NCBI RefSeq assembly: GCF_029395435.1
Contig: NZ_CP113915.1
Coordinates: 1,984,001 to 2,048,000 of the forward strand
DNA: 64,000 bases
Direction: 5' to 3'
DNA from: Bifidobacterium sp. ESL0790
GTDB lineage: Bacteria; Actinomycetota; Actinomycetes; Actinomycetales; Bifidobacteriaceae
Positions 11,264 to 14,636 of the stretch are shown here, piece by piece. The notes beneath the pieces are model-generated. The model was not told the DNA's origin. It searched no databases and saw only the letters and a list, made by a program, of their open reading frames with translations. The translations under genes and the position numbers were made by a program. The stretch's first letter is position 1. The number at the start of each line of letters is the position of its first letter.

Positions 11264-13360
11264 ATGAACACAACGAAGGCCATCGAAGAACCAGCCACGC
11301 CCAGTTTCCCCATCACCAAGCCCGACCAGTTCGGCCGCATCGTCATCCTCTCCGCGACGCCGAATGAGGAATGCGGGACGTTCCCGGCACGCGTCGAGCT
11401 GGGCGAAGTGTTCAAGGTAAGCGCGCAGATCTTCATCGAGGGCCGCAGCAGGACGAGAGCCACGGCGGTGCTGCACGGGCCGGATGGGAAAGTGCGTCGA
11501 GTCAAGGCGATGGCTTATGTCAATCCCGGGCTTGACTTGTGGACCGTGGACCTGGCCGCCGGTGAGGCCAGCAACGTGAGGCCTTGGGAACCTGAGTTCG
11601 CCGAGGTCGCCGAACAGCTCGGCGAATGGACGGTGGCGCTTGAGGGCTGGGAGGACATCTACGCCTCGTGGCTCGCCGACGCGCGTATCAAGGTTGAAGT
11701 CGGTGACGACGTCGACAACATCCTCACCACGGGCTCGGCACTCTTCGCACGCTGGGCGCGGACGAAGGACGCCAAGCTCGATGACGCCGAAAAATCGACT
11801 TTGCTCAACGTCTCGCGAACGCTTGGCGACGCGGATATCGACGCTGGCGAGCGCCTGAAAGCCGCGGACAATCCAGCCATTGAGGCGCTGCATCTGGAGC
11901 ACCCGCTGCGCGACGGGCTCACGTCGAGTGACCCGCTGCGATTCCGCGTCGAACGGCCGAAGTCGAGTTTCACCGCGTGGTACCAGTTCTTCCCGCGTTC
12001 CGAAGGCGCGAAACGCGATCCGGCGACCGGCAGAATCACGCAGGGCACCCTCACCACCGCCTTGAGCGGACTCGACCGCGCGGCCGCCGAGGGATTCGAC
12101 GTGGTGTATGTGCCGCCCATCTTTCCCATCGGCGTGACCAACCGCAAGGGCCGCGACAACGCGCTGGTGGCCGGGCCCGACGACCCGGGCTCACCATTCG
12201 GCATCGGCGCTAAAGCCGGCGGACACGACACCGTCGACCCATTGCTTGGAGACATGGACGACTTCAAGACGTTCTGCGACCATGCCCACAAGCTCGGCCT
12301 CGAGGTCGCGTTGGACTTCGCGTTGCAATGCTCGCCCGACCACCCGTGGGTGCGCGAGCATCCGGATTGGTTCCGTCACAAGCCCGACGGCACCATCGCC
12401 TTCGCGGAGAACCCGCCGAAGAAATACCAAGACATCTATCCCATCGATTTCAACATCGACATGCCCGGCATCGAGCGCGAGACCGAGCGAGTCATGGACC
12501 TCTGGATCAACGAGGGCGTCACGATGTTCCGCATCGACAACCCCCACACGAAGCCGGTGCGTTTCTGGCAGGACGTCATCAAAGCCGTGCAGACCCGGCA
12601 CCCCGAGACGCTCTTTCTGGCGGAGGCGTTCACCCGCCCGGCCATCATGCAGGCGCTGAGCCTGGCCGGATTCACGCAATCGCACTGCTACTTCCCCTGG
12701 CGCAACACCAAGGACGAGCTCACCGAATACCTGCAGACCACCAACGGCGACAAGGCCTATTACCAGCACAACACGTTCTGGCCCACCACACCCGACATCC
12801 TCACCGATTACCTGCGCGACAACGGTGCGGAAGGCCATAAGGTGCGCGCCGTGCTGGCCGCGATGGGCTCACCCTCGTGGGGCATCTACAACGGCTATGA
12901 GCTGGTGGAGAACCGGCAGCAGGAGGGCCACGAGGAACAGGCAGACAACGAGAAATACGAGATCAAGGTGCGCGATTGGAGCCAGGCCGAGCGCTATGGC
13001 ATCGCCGATCTGCTCACCCAGCTCAACCACATCCGCCGCGAGCACCCGAGCTGCCGTAGCTACCACGACCTGGTGATGCTCTGGACCAGCGACCCGAACG
13101 TCGTCGCCTTCGCGCGCCACACGCCGGCCGACCTCAACGAATCCAAAACGGACGACACCGTCATCGTCGTGGTGAATCTCGATTGCCAGGCCGCCCACAC
13201 CTCGGAGGTCAATTTCGACCCCGCATTGCTCGGCCTGCCACGGGACAAATCTTTCACCGTCCACGACGAACTCGGAGGCGGCGACTTCATCTGGACGAGC
13301 AACAACAAACTCACGCTCGACCCCGCCAATCGCCCCGCCTATATCCTCACCGTTGCATAA
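11264..13360 (+). CDS. glgE: Alpha-1,4-glucan:maltose-1-phosphate maltosyltransferase
   Basis: A GH13 enzyme of 698 residues that extends alpha-glucan chains with maltosyl units from maltose 1-phosphate. The ATG at 11264 follows GGAGG with normal spacing; an upstream in-frame ATG at 11153 lacks one. An N-terminal beta domain (about 30-150) precedes a helical insert and the catalytic barrel. The nucleophile is Asp425 in FRIDNPHTKP and the acid is Glu454 in FLAEAF. GlgE markers such as YVPPIFPIG, GSPFGIG and YYQHNTFWPTTPD are present. The maltokinase, trehalose synthase and GlgB partners are not in this window. DnaA boxes lie upstream and a DUF3800-like gene follows by four bases. Confidence 0.95.
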   Translation: MNTTKAIEEPATPSFPITKPDQFGRIVILSATPNEECGTFPARVELGEVFKVSAQIFIEGRSRTRATAVLHGPDGKVRRVKAMAYVNPGLDLWTVDLAAGEASNVRPWEPEFAEVAEQLGEWTVALEGWEDIYASWLADARIKVEVGDDVDNILTTGSALFARWARTKDAKLDDAEKSTLLNVSRTLGDADIDAGERLKAADNPAIEALHLEHPLRDGLTSSDPLRFRVERPKSSFTAWYQFFPRSEGAKRDPATGRITQGTLTTALSGLDRAAAEGFDVVYVPPIFPIGVTNRKGRDNALVAGPDDPGSPFGIGAKAGGHDTVDPLLGDMDDFKTFCDHAHKLGLEVALDFALQCSPDHPWVREHPDWFRHKPDGTIAFAENPPKKYQDIYPIDFNIDMPGIERETERVMDLWINEGVTMFRIDNPHTKPVRFWQDVIKAVQTRHPETLFLAEAFTRPAIMQALSLAGFTQSHCYFPWRNTKDELTEYLQTTNGDKAYYQHNTFWPTTPDILTDYLRDNGAEGHKVRAVLAAMGSPSWGIYNGYELVENRQQEGHEEQADNEKYEIKVRDWSQAERYGIADLLTQLNHIRREHPSCRSYHDLVMLWTSDPNVVAFARHTPADLNESKTDDTVIVVVNLDCQAAHTSEVNFDPALLGLPRDKSFTVHDELGGGDFIWTSNNKLTLDPANRPAYILTVA

Positions 13361-13364
13361 AATT

Positions 13365-13934
13365 ATGGCTATAAATCCGCTAGCTTGGTGCGACGAGAGC
13401 ATCGTCAAGGAGCACGGGTCTACATCGTCTCGATATCTTATCGGTGCAAGCCTTTGCGGCCTTGATGAAAAAACAATCAGAACATTCTTCATCAAAGAAC
13501 ATCTTGTAAAACGAACCAAAGCTCACTGGCATGATATGACCCTGCCAGAACGAAGAAAATCAATCGCATTCATTGATGGTTTGAATCTGGTGCATATCGT
13601 CGCTTCAGTCGAATTTACTTCTGGCATCACCCGGCCCGAACGTGCCCGCAGAAGGTGTCTCGAACACTTACTTCCCGTTCTTGAACAAGATTACTCAGTC
13701 GCTCAAGTCTTTATGGAAGGTCGCACCAAACAACAAAACAATGCCGAAATCACATTCATTCAGGGACTCAGATCGCGAGGATTTTTCAGAGTTTTGCGCT
13801 ATGACCTGATGCCAGGGTCGCAAGATGCCAGACTTTGGATTCCCGATCAGATACTCGGAGCGGTAGGAAGTGCAGACAGGTCACTTTTTCACCCGCAAAA
13901 CGTCATCAGACTACCCACTACCAGCATCATTTAA
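13365..13934 (+). CDS. DUF3800-like protein
   Basis: A 189-residue protein that starts four bases after the glgE stop and has no clear ribosome-binding site. A GTG/ATG at 13353 is an alternative start. It shows the DUF3800 pattern: an early acidic motif CDES (Asp10, Glu11), then YLIGASL, a central WHDMTLPERR segment, and a C-terminal DARLWIPDQILGAV that matches the usual D-x6-7-Q-hydrophobic-A/G-G end motif. This family is thought to have an RNase H-like fold and often sits in defence or mobile contexts; its function is unproven. Codon use is visibly AT-richer than in glgE, consistent with acquisition. A structured RNA candidate follows within 55 bases. Confidence 0.68.
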   Translation: MAINPLAWCDESIVKEHGSTSSRYLIGASLCGLDEKTIRTFFIKEHLVKRTKAHWHDMTLPERRKSIAFIDGLNLVHIVASVEFTSGITRPERARRRCLEHLLPVLEQDYSVAQVFMEGRTKQQNNAEITFIQGLRSRGFFRVLRYDLMPGSQDARLWIPDQILGAVGSADRSLFHPQNVIRLPTTSII

Positions 13935-13978
13935 TTCATAATGTCACTTGATAAAGTAGAAAAATCCACAAAAGTATC

Positions 13979-14076
13979 TATAATGGGACTATCGCCTACC
14001 TCCGAGGAGGCAAGGAAGTGGAAGCCGGATTGCCCGTGTTGCACGGGGACCGGTTTCCGCGTTTTTACCAGTTTTT
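13979..14076 (+). ncRNA. Candidate structured small RNA after the DUF3800-like gene
   Basis: A perfect -10 box TATAAT (13979-13984) is followed by two hairpins. The first is at 13994-14011 (GCCT, bulged A, CC paired with GGAGGC, small loop). The second is at 14020-14058: GGAAGCCGG pairs with CCGGTTTCC over nine pairs including one G-U, then a 4x2 internal loop, then CCCGTG/CACGGG with a 3-base loop. Two U-runs follow at 14062-14066 and 14072-14076. This looks like an autonomous transcript of about 75-85 nt with its own terminator. Structured RNA motifs linked to DUF3800 genes have been reported by comparative genomics; whether this is one of them I cannot test. Confidence 0.55.
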
Positions 14077-14144
14077 CTTTATGATTCGGCATGGATATGC
14101 GCTAAGCTAGAGGGCGAATAATCAATCCTTATTAAGGAGCAAAC

Positions 14145-14636
14145 ATGGCAGAGACATTCAACGTCCTCGTCGAGATCCCGCGCGGGTCGAAGAACAAGTA
14201 TGAGATGGACGAGGAGACCGGCCGCATCAAGCTCGACCGCACCCTCTTCACCGCGATGGGCTACCCGGATGACTACGGCTACATCGAGGACACCCTGGGC
14301 GAGGACGGCGACCCGCTCGACGCGCTCGTGATGATCCCGAACTCGGTGTTCCCGGGCTGCGAGATCAAGTGCCGCGCCGTGGCGCTCTACCACATGGAGG
14401 ACGAAGAGGGCGGCGACGACAAGGTGCTGTGCGTGCCCGCCGACGTGCGCTTCGACGACATCAAGGATGTCGACGACGTCAACGACTACCACAAGGCCGA
14501 AATCAAGCACTTCTTCGAGCAGTACAAGGCCCTGGAGCCTGGCAAGGAAGTCATGCCCGGCGATTACTGGACCGGCGCCGAAGAGGCCGAGAAGCAAATC
14601 GTGGCCGCCCGCGAGCGCCTCGCCGCCAAGAAGTGA
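14145..14636 (+). CDS. ppa: Inorganic pyrophosphatase
   Basis: A family I soluble pyrophosphatase of 163 residues that hydrolyses PPi to phosphate and so drives biosynthetic reactions. The signature EDGDPLDALVMIP supplies the metal-binding aspartates. FTAMGYPDDYGYIEDT and YKALEPGKEV are also typical. The start is set by AAGGAG seven bases before the ATG. It is monocistronic, with a terminator about 80 bases downstream. Confidence 0.97.
   Translation: MAETFNVLVEIPRGSKNKYEMDEETGRIKLDRTLFTAMGYPDDYGYIEDTLGEDGDPLDALVMIPNSVFPGCEIKCRAVALYHMEDEEGGDDKVLCVPADVRFDDIKDVDDVNDYHKAEIKHFFEQYKALEPGKEVMPGDYWTGAEEAEKQIVAARERLAAKK

Follow-up and report, generated by a model that had tools for sequence, protein, structure and literature searches.

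The window analysed here is a stretch of 64,000 nucleotides from a 2.25-Mb Bifidobacterium genome, in which a short gene and a small structured RNA element lie between glgE and ppa (as identified with Pfam). The features of the locus are:

13365–13934, + strand: DUF3800-like gene of 189 amino acids (open reading frame; homologue alignments; predicted RNase H2-like fold)
13979–13984, + strand: −10 hexamer TATAAT, its first base 15 nt before the conserved GCC
about 13991–14066, + strand: small RNA gene of ~76 nt (covariance models R1 and R2; both ends predicted)
13994–14011, + strand: 5′ hairpin (GCCU.CCU/AGG.AGGC), variable in sequence but kept as a hairpin
14014–14018, + strand: GGAAG linker (alignment A5, 73 sequences), the last G also pairing in the long hairpin
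14018–14060, + strand: long hairpin (outer stem 14018–14028/14050–14060, inner stem 14033–14038/14042–14047)
14062–14066, + strand: U tail, presumably the RNA's own terminator (T enrichment across 73 homologues)

The gene begins (ATG 13365) four bases after the glgE stop codon (13358–13360), its GC content is 46.8% compared with 63.1% for glgE and 63.2% for ppa, and its product carries the motifs CDES, YLIGAS and DARLWIPDQILGAV, while TATAAT (13979–13984) lies 45 bases past the gene (stop codon 13932–13934). On all of these points, the four-base gap, the AT-richer gene, the motifs and the hexamer, the preliminary description of this DNA is borne out. From start codon to U tail the module measures about 0.7 kb. 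Within positions 13365–13400 the window copy reads CDES where its relatives read GDES, and there is no obvious ribosome-binding site in this copy four bases after glgE, suggesting that its translation may be coupled to that of glgE. In several close relatives (L075–L078 and L081) glgE and ppa are adjacent without the gene, which argues that gene and RNA were inserted here as a unit; target duplications could not be defined at the junction, where the border is too diverged from the relatives. By eye, an apparent degenerate copy of the RNA lies in the glgE–ppa gap of L088 (genome G084), a species without the gene at that place.

The two stem-loops that had been described behind the gene are both present (13994–14011 and 14018–14060), the second with 17 pairs (11 outer and 6 inner) and not the 15 first counted. 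The two U-runs also lie in the window as described, but the second (about 14072–14076) is not conserved, the 3′ flank no longer being T-rich from +8. The region 13980–14085 folds at −40.1 kcal/mol compared with −30.1 kcal/mol in shuffled sequences (z = −3.0, with 0 of 200 shuffles as low), and the element recurs behind the second gene copy of the same genome and, by covariance model, behind the third. This recurrence beside two other gene copies in the genome, together with homologues elsewhere and covariation among them, confirms an element beyond chance.

When 73 RNAs were aligned by MAFFT without reference to structure (A5), 95.5% of the cells of the long hairpin were paired (82.9% in shuffles) and two-sided changes were found at 13 of its 17 pairs (8.8 in shuffles). 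None of 500 shuffles was as good on any of five measures, a count that includes related rows and so is not a probability. The pairing falls to 34–48% once the partner strand is shifted by one, two or three bases. The preliminary description had held that an element with neither transcript nor covariation would be just a terminator, and the covariation in these homologues is strong. The 5′ hairpin aligned poorly by MAFFT and was therefore counted by presence: a predicted stem of at least three pairs occurs in 72 of the 73 homologues, in very varied sequence, with weak support from energy relative to shuffles (mean z −0.8). In a smaller alignment (A1, 26 rows) RNAalifold gives it three pairs, two of which show two-sided changes (in 5 and 3 rows), with up to 7 broken rows. 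Three of the five linker positions are invariant in the 73 sequences and the other two are conserved in at least 90%; the 5′ AGCC and this GGAAG make up the short unpaired conserved sequence. A −10 hexamer with at least four of six matches stands 13–18 nt upstream of the GCC in 89% of 72 RNAs, compared with 7–25% in nine control windows of equal width, and at five or more matches the values are 46% and 0–7%. Downstream of the long hairpin, T makes up 36–82% of the 73 homologues at positions +2 to +7 and 11% at +8. With its conserved −10 box, two hairpins, linker and short U tail the RNA looks like an independent gene. A protein-coding role for the region was rejected by inspection, as frame and start are not kept among homologues and in-frame stops occur.

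The co-occurrence of gene and RNA in other genomes, which the preliminary description had offered as a check, is very strong. Among 112 Bifidobacterium genomes the RNA adjoins all 22 intact gene copies, at a distance of 60–170 nt from the matched end, and also 7 of the 9 that are broken (intact and broken being our own classing). These counts hold partly by construction because covariance model R1 was trained on the RNAs beside the genus genes; the tests outside the genus are free of this. Counted by genome, the RNA is present in all 23 with the protein and stands alone in 25 of the 89 others, in 18 of these 25 at E ≤ 1e-10 (Fisher p 7e-11 and 4e-13), where the protein is absent in the sense of those assemblies and the search sensitivity used. 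When GTDB contigs were searched with conserved peptides, 46 loci, near-copies included, came up in Actinomycetota. The RNA accompanies the gene at 44 of them, all 16 from Bifidobacterium and 28 of the 30 others; of the two exceptions, L188 lies at the end of a contig and in L219 the gene is broken. For an out-of-sample test with model R2, which was trained on none of these loci, protein hits came from 11 further genomes out of 396 in the phylum. In 8 of the 11 the RNA directly follows the gene (E ≤ 0.003), in two the RNA match is weak (E 0.03 and 0.11) and one (L248) is without. The phylum-wide scan for the RNA itself, in which 11 candidates were scored per genome, is weak (a match in 8 of the 396), and the distribution given here is that of the protein searches. 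Gene and RNA look like a dedicated pair, and the pairing itself we take as practically certain.

Several loci carry more than one copy of the RNA. A second copy lies near the gene at L201, L202, L205 and L218 (an Eggerthellaceae locus and Saccharopolyspora loci), with perhaps a third at L205 and L218; further copies near the gene are found at L070 and L057, and the covariance model detects up to seven per genome.

The relative orientation of the partners is variable. At all 28 RNA-bearing loci outside Bifidobacterium in the GTDB set the RNA is convergent with the gene, on the opposite strand, and at 27 of them its 3′ end falls −8 to +14 nt from the stop codon (the exception is L208, where the frame runs on). 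Within Bifidobacterium 15 of the 22 intact copies are co-oriented with their RNA, as is a plasmid copy outside the genus (L317). On the protein tree four changes of relative orientation are needed, of which at least three are forced by well-supported branches. This independence of orientation counts against a common antisense or 3′-UTR role. A cis-antisense (type I) function, for which RNAs in the convergent layout could pair with the mRNA of the gene, was ruled out as the common one on the 15 co-oriented copies. As the long hairpin and the Us behind it can end transcription, the RNA might be read as a mere intrinsic terminator of the gene. That is highly improbable, and terminator function as a full account was rejected, given the opposite-strand position in 28 of 28 loci outside Bifidobacterium, the changes of orientation, the RNA's own −10 box, the extra 5′ hairpin and near-invariant linker, and copies without the gene that (by inspection) stand behind the terminator of another gene.

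Protein and RNA have also diverged together. Their pairwise distances correlate with r 0.74 over 44 pairs and r 0.64 over 20 pairs in Bifidobacterium (0 of 5000 permutations in each case), values that include the shared ancestry of the hosts. In the third copy of the window's genome, protein and RNA are both nearest L029 and L030 and not their own paralogues.

The protein belongs to a family with homologues in 23 of the 112 Bifidobacterium genomes, including three copies in the window's own. It matches no family of Pfam or NCBIfam at E ≤ 1, and its one match in PHROG has E 0.31. PF12686, the DUF3800 family, whose profile the preliminary description had proposed for a search, does not match the window protein (Pfam curated cut-off 21 bits) and gives only three weak matches among 21 relatives (best E 0.11, below the cut-off), while the same profile finds ordinary DUF3800 genes in 28 of the 112 genomes, at other places. 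The kinship itself holds up. In hhalign the alignment of 21 homologues (A2) meets that of 12 PF12686 members (A3) with E 3.2e-5 and a probability of 72.6% over 160 columns, a modest but consistent link that includes the DES and terminal D motifs. AlphaFold2, supplied with the 21 homologues, predicts the window protein with pLDDT 93.5 and pTM 0.89, and the closest solved folds are RNase H2/HII (Z 11.8, 2.9 Å over 152 residues); a PF12686 protein of the genus (L034), modelled likewise (pLDDT 83.4), also has RNase H2 first (Z 12.8). Among viral structures the window protein is matched best by a DUF3800 protein (TM 0.61, normalised to the length of the query); a profile search of PDB sequences gave nothing below E 0.05.

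With the PF12686 proteins the window protein shares a DES motif close to the N terminus, a late helix that bears an acidic residue and a similar order of elements, and 3 of 20 listed plasmid homologue records are named 'DUF3800 domain-containing protein'. It differs from them in being shorter (the family has about 190 amino acids), in scoring below the Pfam cut-off and in its family-specific KxHW and ERARRKCLE-like motifs. The PADLOC RT-DUF3800 models matched at best 2 of 35 family members, weakly (E 0.012). The profile comparison, the shared RNase H2-like predicted fold and the DES and PDQ/ADL motifs support the view that the protein is a divergent DUF3800 relative; since Pfam's own cut-off is not reached, it is named DUF3800-like and is not assigned to PF12686. 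Positions invariant in 35 diverse homologues include D10, E11, S12, Y24, K52, H54, W55, R95, E118, R120 and D161. The fold of RNase H2/HII has four active-site carboxylates, to which the invariant D10, E11, E118 and D161 may correspond.

The RNA likewise belongs to a known kind without matching a known family. At gathering score Rfam places no family on the RNA in the window, and at permissive E values (window positions 13300–14300 and sets of 15, 12 and 11 loci) nothing rises over the gathering score, including the DUF3800-I to -XI models against which a comparison had been suggested. The sub-threshold matches listed are at chance level; one of them, PhotoRC-I (E 1), overlaps the RNA on the opposite strand. 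This negative is informative because the identical search detects DUF3800-I and DUF3800-IX RNAs beside ordinary DUF3800 genes of the genus. In Rfam, DUF3800-I (RF02969), DUF3800-IX (RF02968) and DUF3800-XI (RF02975) are, like the window element, small structured RNAs typed as sRNA genes and lying beside DUF3800-type genes. Within the genus DUF3800-IX is downstream and convergent (L038, L039 and L041), in the manner of many window-type loci, DUF3800-I lies just upstream of its gene (L043 and L047), and DUF3800-XI comes up just below gathering score only (L048 and L049). DUF3800-IX is a closed three-way junction, whereas in the window RNA two hairpins follow one another, joined by the GGAAG linker, and its partner protein escapes PF12686. 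The RNA thus appears to be a further DUF3800-type RNA without an Rfam family, and the preliminary title of a DUF3800-like gene paired with a candidate autonomous RNA is supported, short of the PF12686 and Rfam thresholds. A 2017 survey of 224 candidate structured RNAs reportedly named DUF3800 RNAs as well, and we know of no function for the RNAs beside DUF3800 genes. No description of the window RNA was found in the portions consulted of papers that mention DUF3800 and of a human-microbiome RNA survey (PMC8040213); it may have been noticed earlier elsewhere.

The predicted fold raises the question of whether the RNA serves the protein as a cofactor or guide. TnpB with its omegaRNA and Argonaute are RNase H-like nucleases with an RNA, both much larger than the window protein, and the OMEGA (TnpB/IscB) RNA consists of a scaffold plus a variable guide. 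By analogy the RNA would be a scaffold that the RNase H-fold protein requires and that directs cleavage of foreign nucleic acid, and Argonaute PIWI domains are indeed in the next group of fold matches after RNase H2 (Z about 7–8). The highest Z belongs to RNase H2/HII, however, which needs no guide. Between its own −10 box and its U tail the RNA consists largely of the two hairpins and leaves little room for a guide: up to its predicted 3′ end it shows no variable unpaired stretch, and a guide beyond the tail would need readthrough. A pure cofactor should moreover decay where the protein is missing, yet the RNA is seen in the 25 genomes without detected protein. A cofactor or guide role is unlikely in our judgement. 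According to the parts consulted of PMC10910872 and PMC12669027, DUF3800 proteins are RNase H-fold accessories of some CRISPR loci, lying beside some Cas12a2 (V-A2) and type VI-F loci, which keeps a defence reading open.

The lone RNAs can be followed at a site shared by eight Bifidobacterium species, where gene and RNA occur together in L054, L065, L067 (with the gene broken) and L070, and the RNA alone in L139, L142, L144 and L150. The lone RNA here follows a gene that by inspection ends in its own hairpin terminator. Between genomes without detected protein but with matching upstream flanks, the solo RNA is often more conserved than its 100-base flanks (L155/L157, 0.89 compared with 0.66 and 0.27; L157/L158, 0.93 compared with 0.66 and 0.32). 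In other pairs it is no more conserved than a flank (L161/L168, 0.76 compared with 0.85 and 0.32; L136/L141, 0.73 compared with 0.25 and 0.75) or than both flanks (L158/L160, 0.97 compared with 0.99 and 1.0), so that some of these orthologues may be decaying. An RNA kept in this way, with its own −10 box and U tail, might be a trans-acting sRNA that works on mRNAs or other proteins, the protein merely processing or degrading it to set its level. Against such a regulator stand the 22 of 22 intact genus copies with an RNA and the joint divergence of the two, which point to a dedicated pair, and the shortness of the unpaired conserved sequence (5′ AGCC and GGAAG); we consider it unlikely.

A different view of the solo copies is that of a mobile element, the hairpin being the end or integration site for an RNase H-fold transposase-like protein and the lone copies its non-autonomous forms. 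The empty glgE–ppa site of close relatives, the multiple RNA copies per genome and synteny that often breaks at the RNA would suit it, as would near-identical solo RNAs in unlike surroundings: those of L167 (G107) and L171 (G036) are 0.97 identical, with flanks of 0.46 and 0.09 and unmatched surroundings. Since the flanks are not shared, this pair was left out of the conservation evidence; its near-identity possibly reflects recent spread of the RNA alone. However, the orientation of RNA and gene flips, and a transcribed RNA would account for the conserved −10 box, the U tail and the compensatory changes. Retroviral integrases do appear among the fold matches (Z about 7), but well below RNase H2, which comes first. 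We regard a mobile element as quite unlikely.

Some further observations concern the surroundings of these RNAs. When L139, L142, L144 and L150 are compared with L065, L067 and L070, the RNA is often the point at which synteny ends, and a small gene, lipoprotein-like by inspection, switches from one side to the other. Two solo RNAs of one genome (L057, 8068–8145 and 13026–13100) have ~100 nt of upstream sequence in common; by inspection of the ORFs, genes for an Abi-like protein, a transposase and an ATPase are nearby. By eye, a GGTTATAGGCC-like intergenic string occurs near many Bifidobacterium RNAs (L057, L061, L062, L135, L137, L138, L144 and L150) and is possibly a genus-wide repeat. By eye, solo RNAs show no excess in genomes that also have ordinary DUF3800 genes.

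The pair is also carried on plasmids. Homologues of two query proteins were found in 29 and 73 plasmid records respectively, and of nine chosen plasmid stretches eight have the RNA next to the gene (E ≤ 6e-6 in seven, a partial match at E 8e-4 in the other), the ninth (L314, from a Streptomyces plasmid) being without it. Neither the two protein queries nor a pattern-based scan of viral contigs gave phage homologues, and two RNA patterns, which cover part of the family, returned 47 distinct loci in viral contigs, none convincing by R2 (best E 0.057). Among 95 frames of 25 loci, delimited by simple ORF finding, the neighbours matched by PADLOC are mostly single restriction-modification-type genes (best 25 of 52 families), and in Pfam housekeeping types lead (best 25 of 87 families) and not defence islands.

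The one-way dependence of the partners, in which no intact gene of the genus lacks the RNA and the RNA is often found without the gene, is as a toxin–antitoxin system predicts, and with plasmid carriage and a nuclease-type fold it fits an RNA that restrains a harmful enzyme. The preliminary description had left the choice between toxin–antitoxin, defence and retroelement-like units; an RNA-antitoxin-like pair is now favoured, and a guide-RNA reading is weakened. We propose, at about even chances, a compact two-gene module that combines an RNase H2-like, DUF3800-related nuclease-fold protein with a ~76-nt RNA antitoxin from a separate gene, which has its own sigma-70-type −10 box and a terminator-like end. 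The folded RNA would bind the protein in trans and restrain its activity, like the RNA antitoxin of type III-like systems; if plasmid loss or infection upset the balance, the nuclease set free would damage either the cell or the invader. Lone RNAs would be remnants after gene loss and may protect against incoming copies, though some could have acquired an unrelated regulatory role. Against the antitoxin reading stand the mainly housekeeping neighbours among those best families, the lack of phage homologues for the two queries, and the loci without RNA, one of nine on plasmids (L314) and one of 11 in the phylum genomes (L248).

In a typical type III system the antitoxin is an array of tandem repeats that precedes the toxin gene and is co-transcribed with it, and the fold of the ToxIN toxin differs from that of the window protein. 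Tandem repeats upstream were not found here: there is usually one RNA, downstream of the gene, separately promoted and mostly convergent outside Bifidobacterium, which also counts against the antitoxin reading, and unlike ToxIN it has no repeat array and is not co-transcribed in most layouts. The predicted logic is nonetheless that of ToxIN, in which, in the portion of PMC5772629 consulted, an RNA neutralises an RNase by direct binding. The nearest tested counterpart of the window pair is AbiF with the abiF RNA (RF03085; RCd22). In the portion of PMC12373285 consulted, RCd22 of Clostridioides difficile is an RNA of ~100 nt, with a promoter and a terminator of its own, that binds AbiF directly and neutralises it both in cis and in trans; the abiF motif is credited there to the survey that listed 224 candidate structured RNAs in 2017. 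The AbiF pair resembles the window pair in joining a nuclease-type protein to a short, structured RNA gene that is separately promoted and terminated (PMC12373285). It differs in that AbiF has a HEPN fold where the window protein is predicted to be RNase H-like, and its RNA lies upstream, is partly co-transcribed and has two motif copies. The AbiF system has been tested at the bench (PMC12373285), whereas the window pair is known from sequence comparison, in its pairing, correlated divergence, RNA structure, promoter, U tail, orientation independence, persistence of the RNA without the gene and plasmid carriage.

RNAs beside DUF3800 genes are already in Rfam, and in the genus the gene described here is never intact without its RNA while the RNA is often found without the gene. 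This one-way logic, together with orientation independence and small size, reduces the question to simple co-expression. If the antitoxin reading is true, a function can be given to a broad, uncharacterised superfamily of proteins, and a plasmid-borne RNA–protein module can be added to those of Actinomycetota, bifidobacteria among them. More tentatively, and with less confidence than we attach to the module itself, the DUF3800-type RNAs including the new one might form a large class of RNA antitoxins against an RNase H2-fold nuclease toxin, spread by plasmids in Actinomycetota, the lone RNAs providing immunity or anti-addiction. Behind the ordinary DUF3800 genes of L034 and L035, from two species, lies a common inverted repeat (GACGCCGTG...CACGGCGT) that has no Rfam match and is perhaps another unlisted partner RNA.
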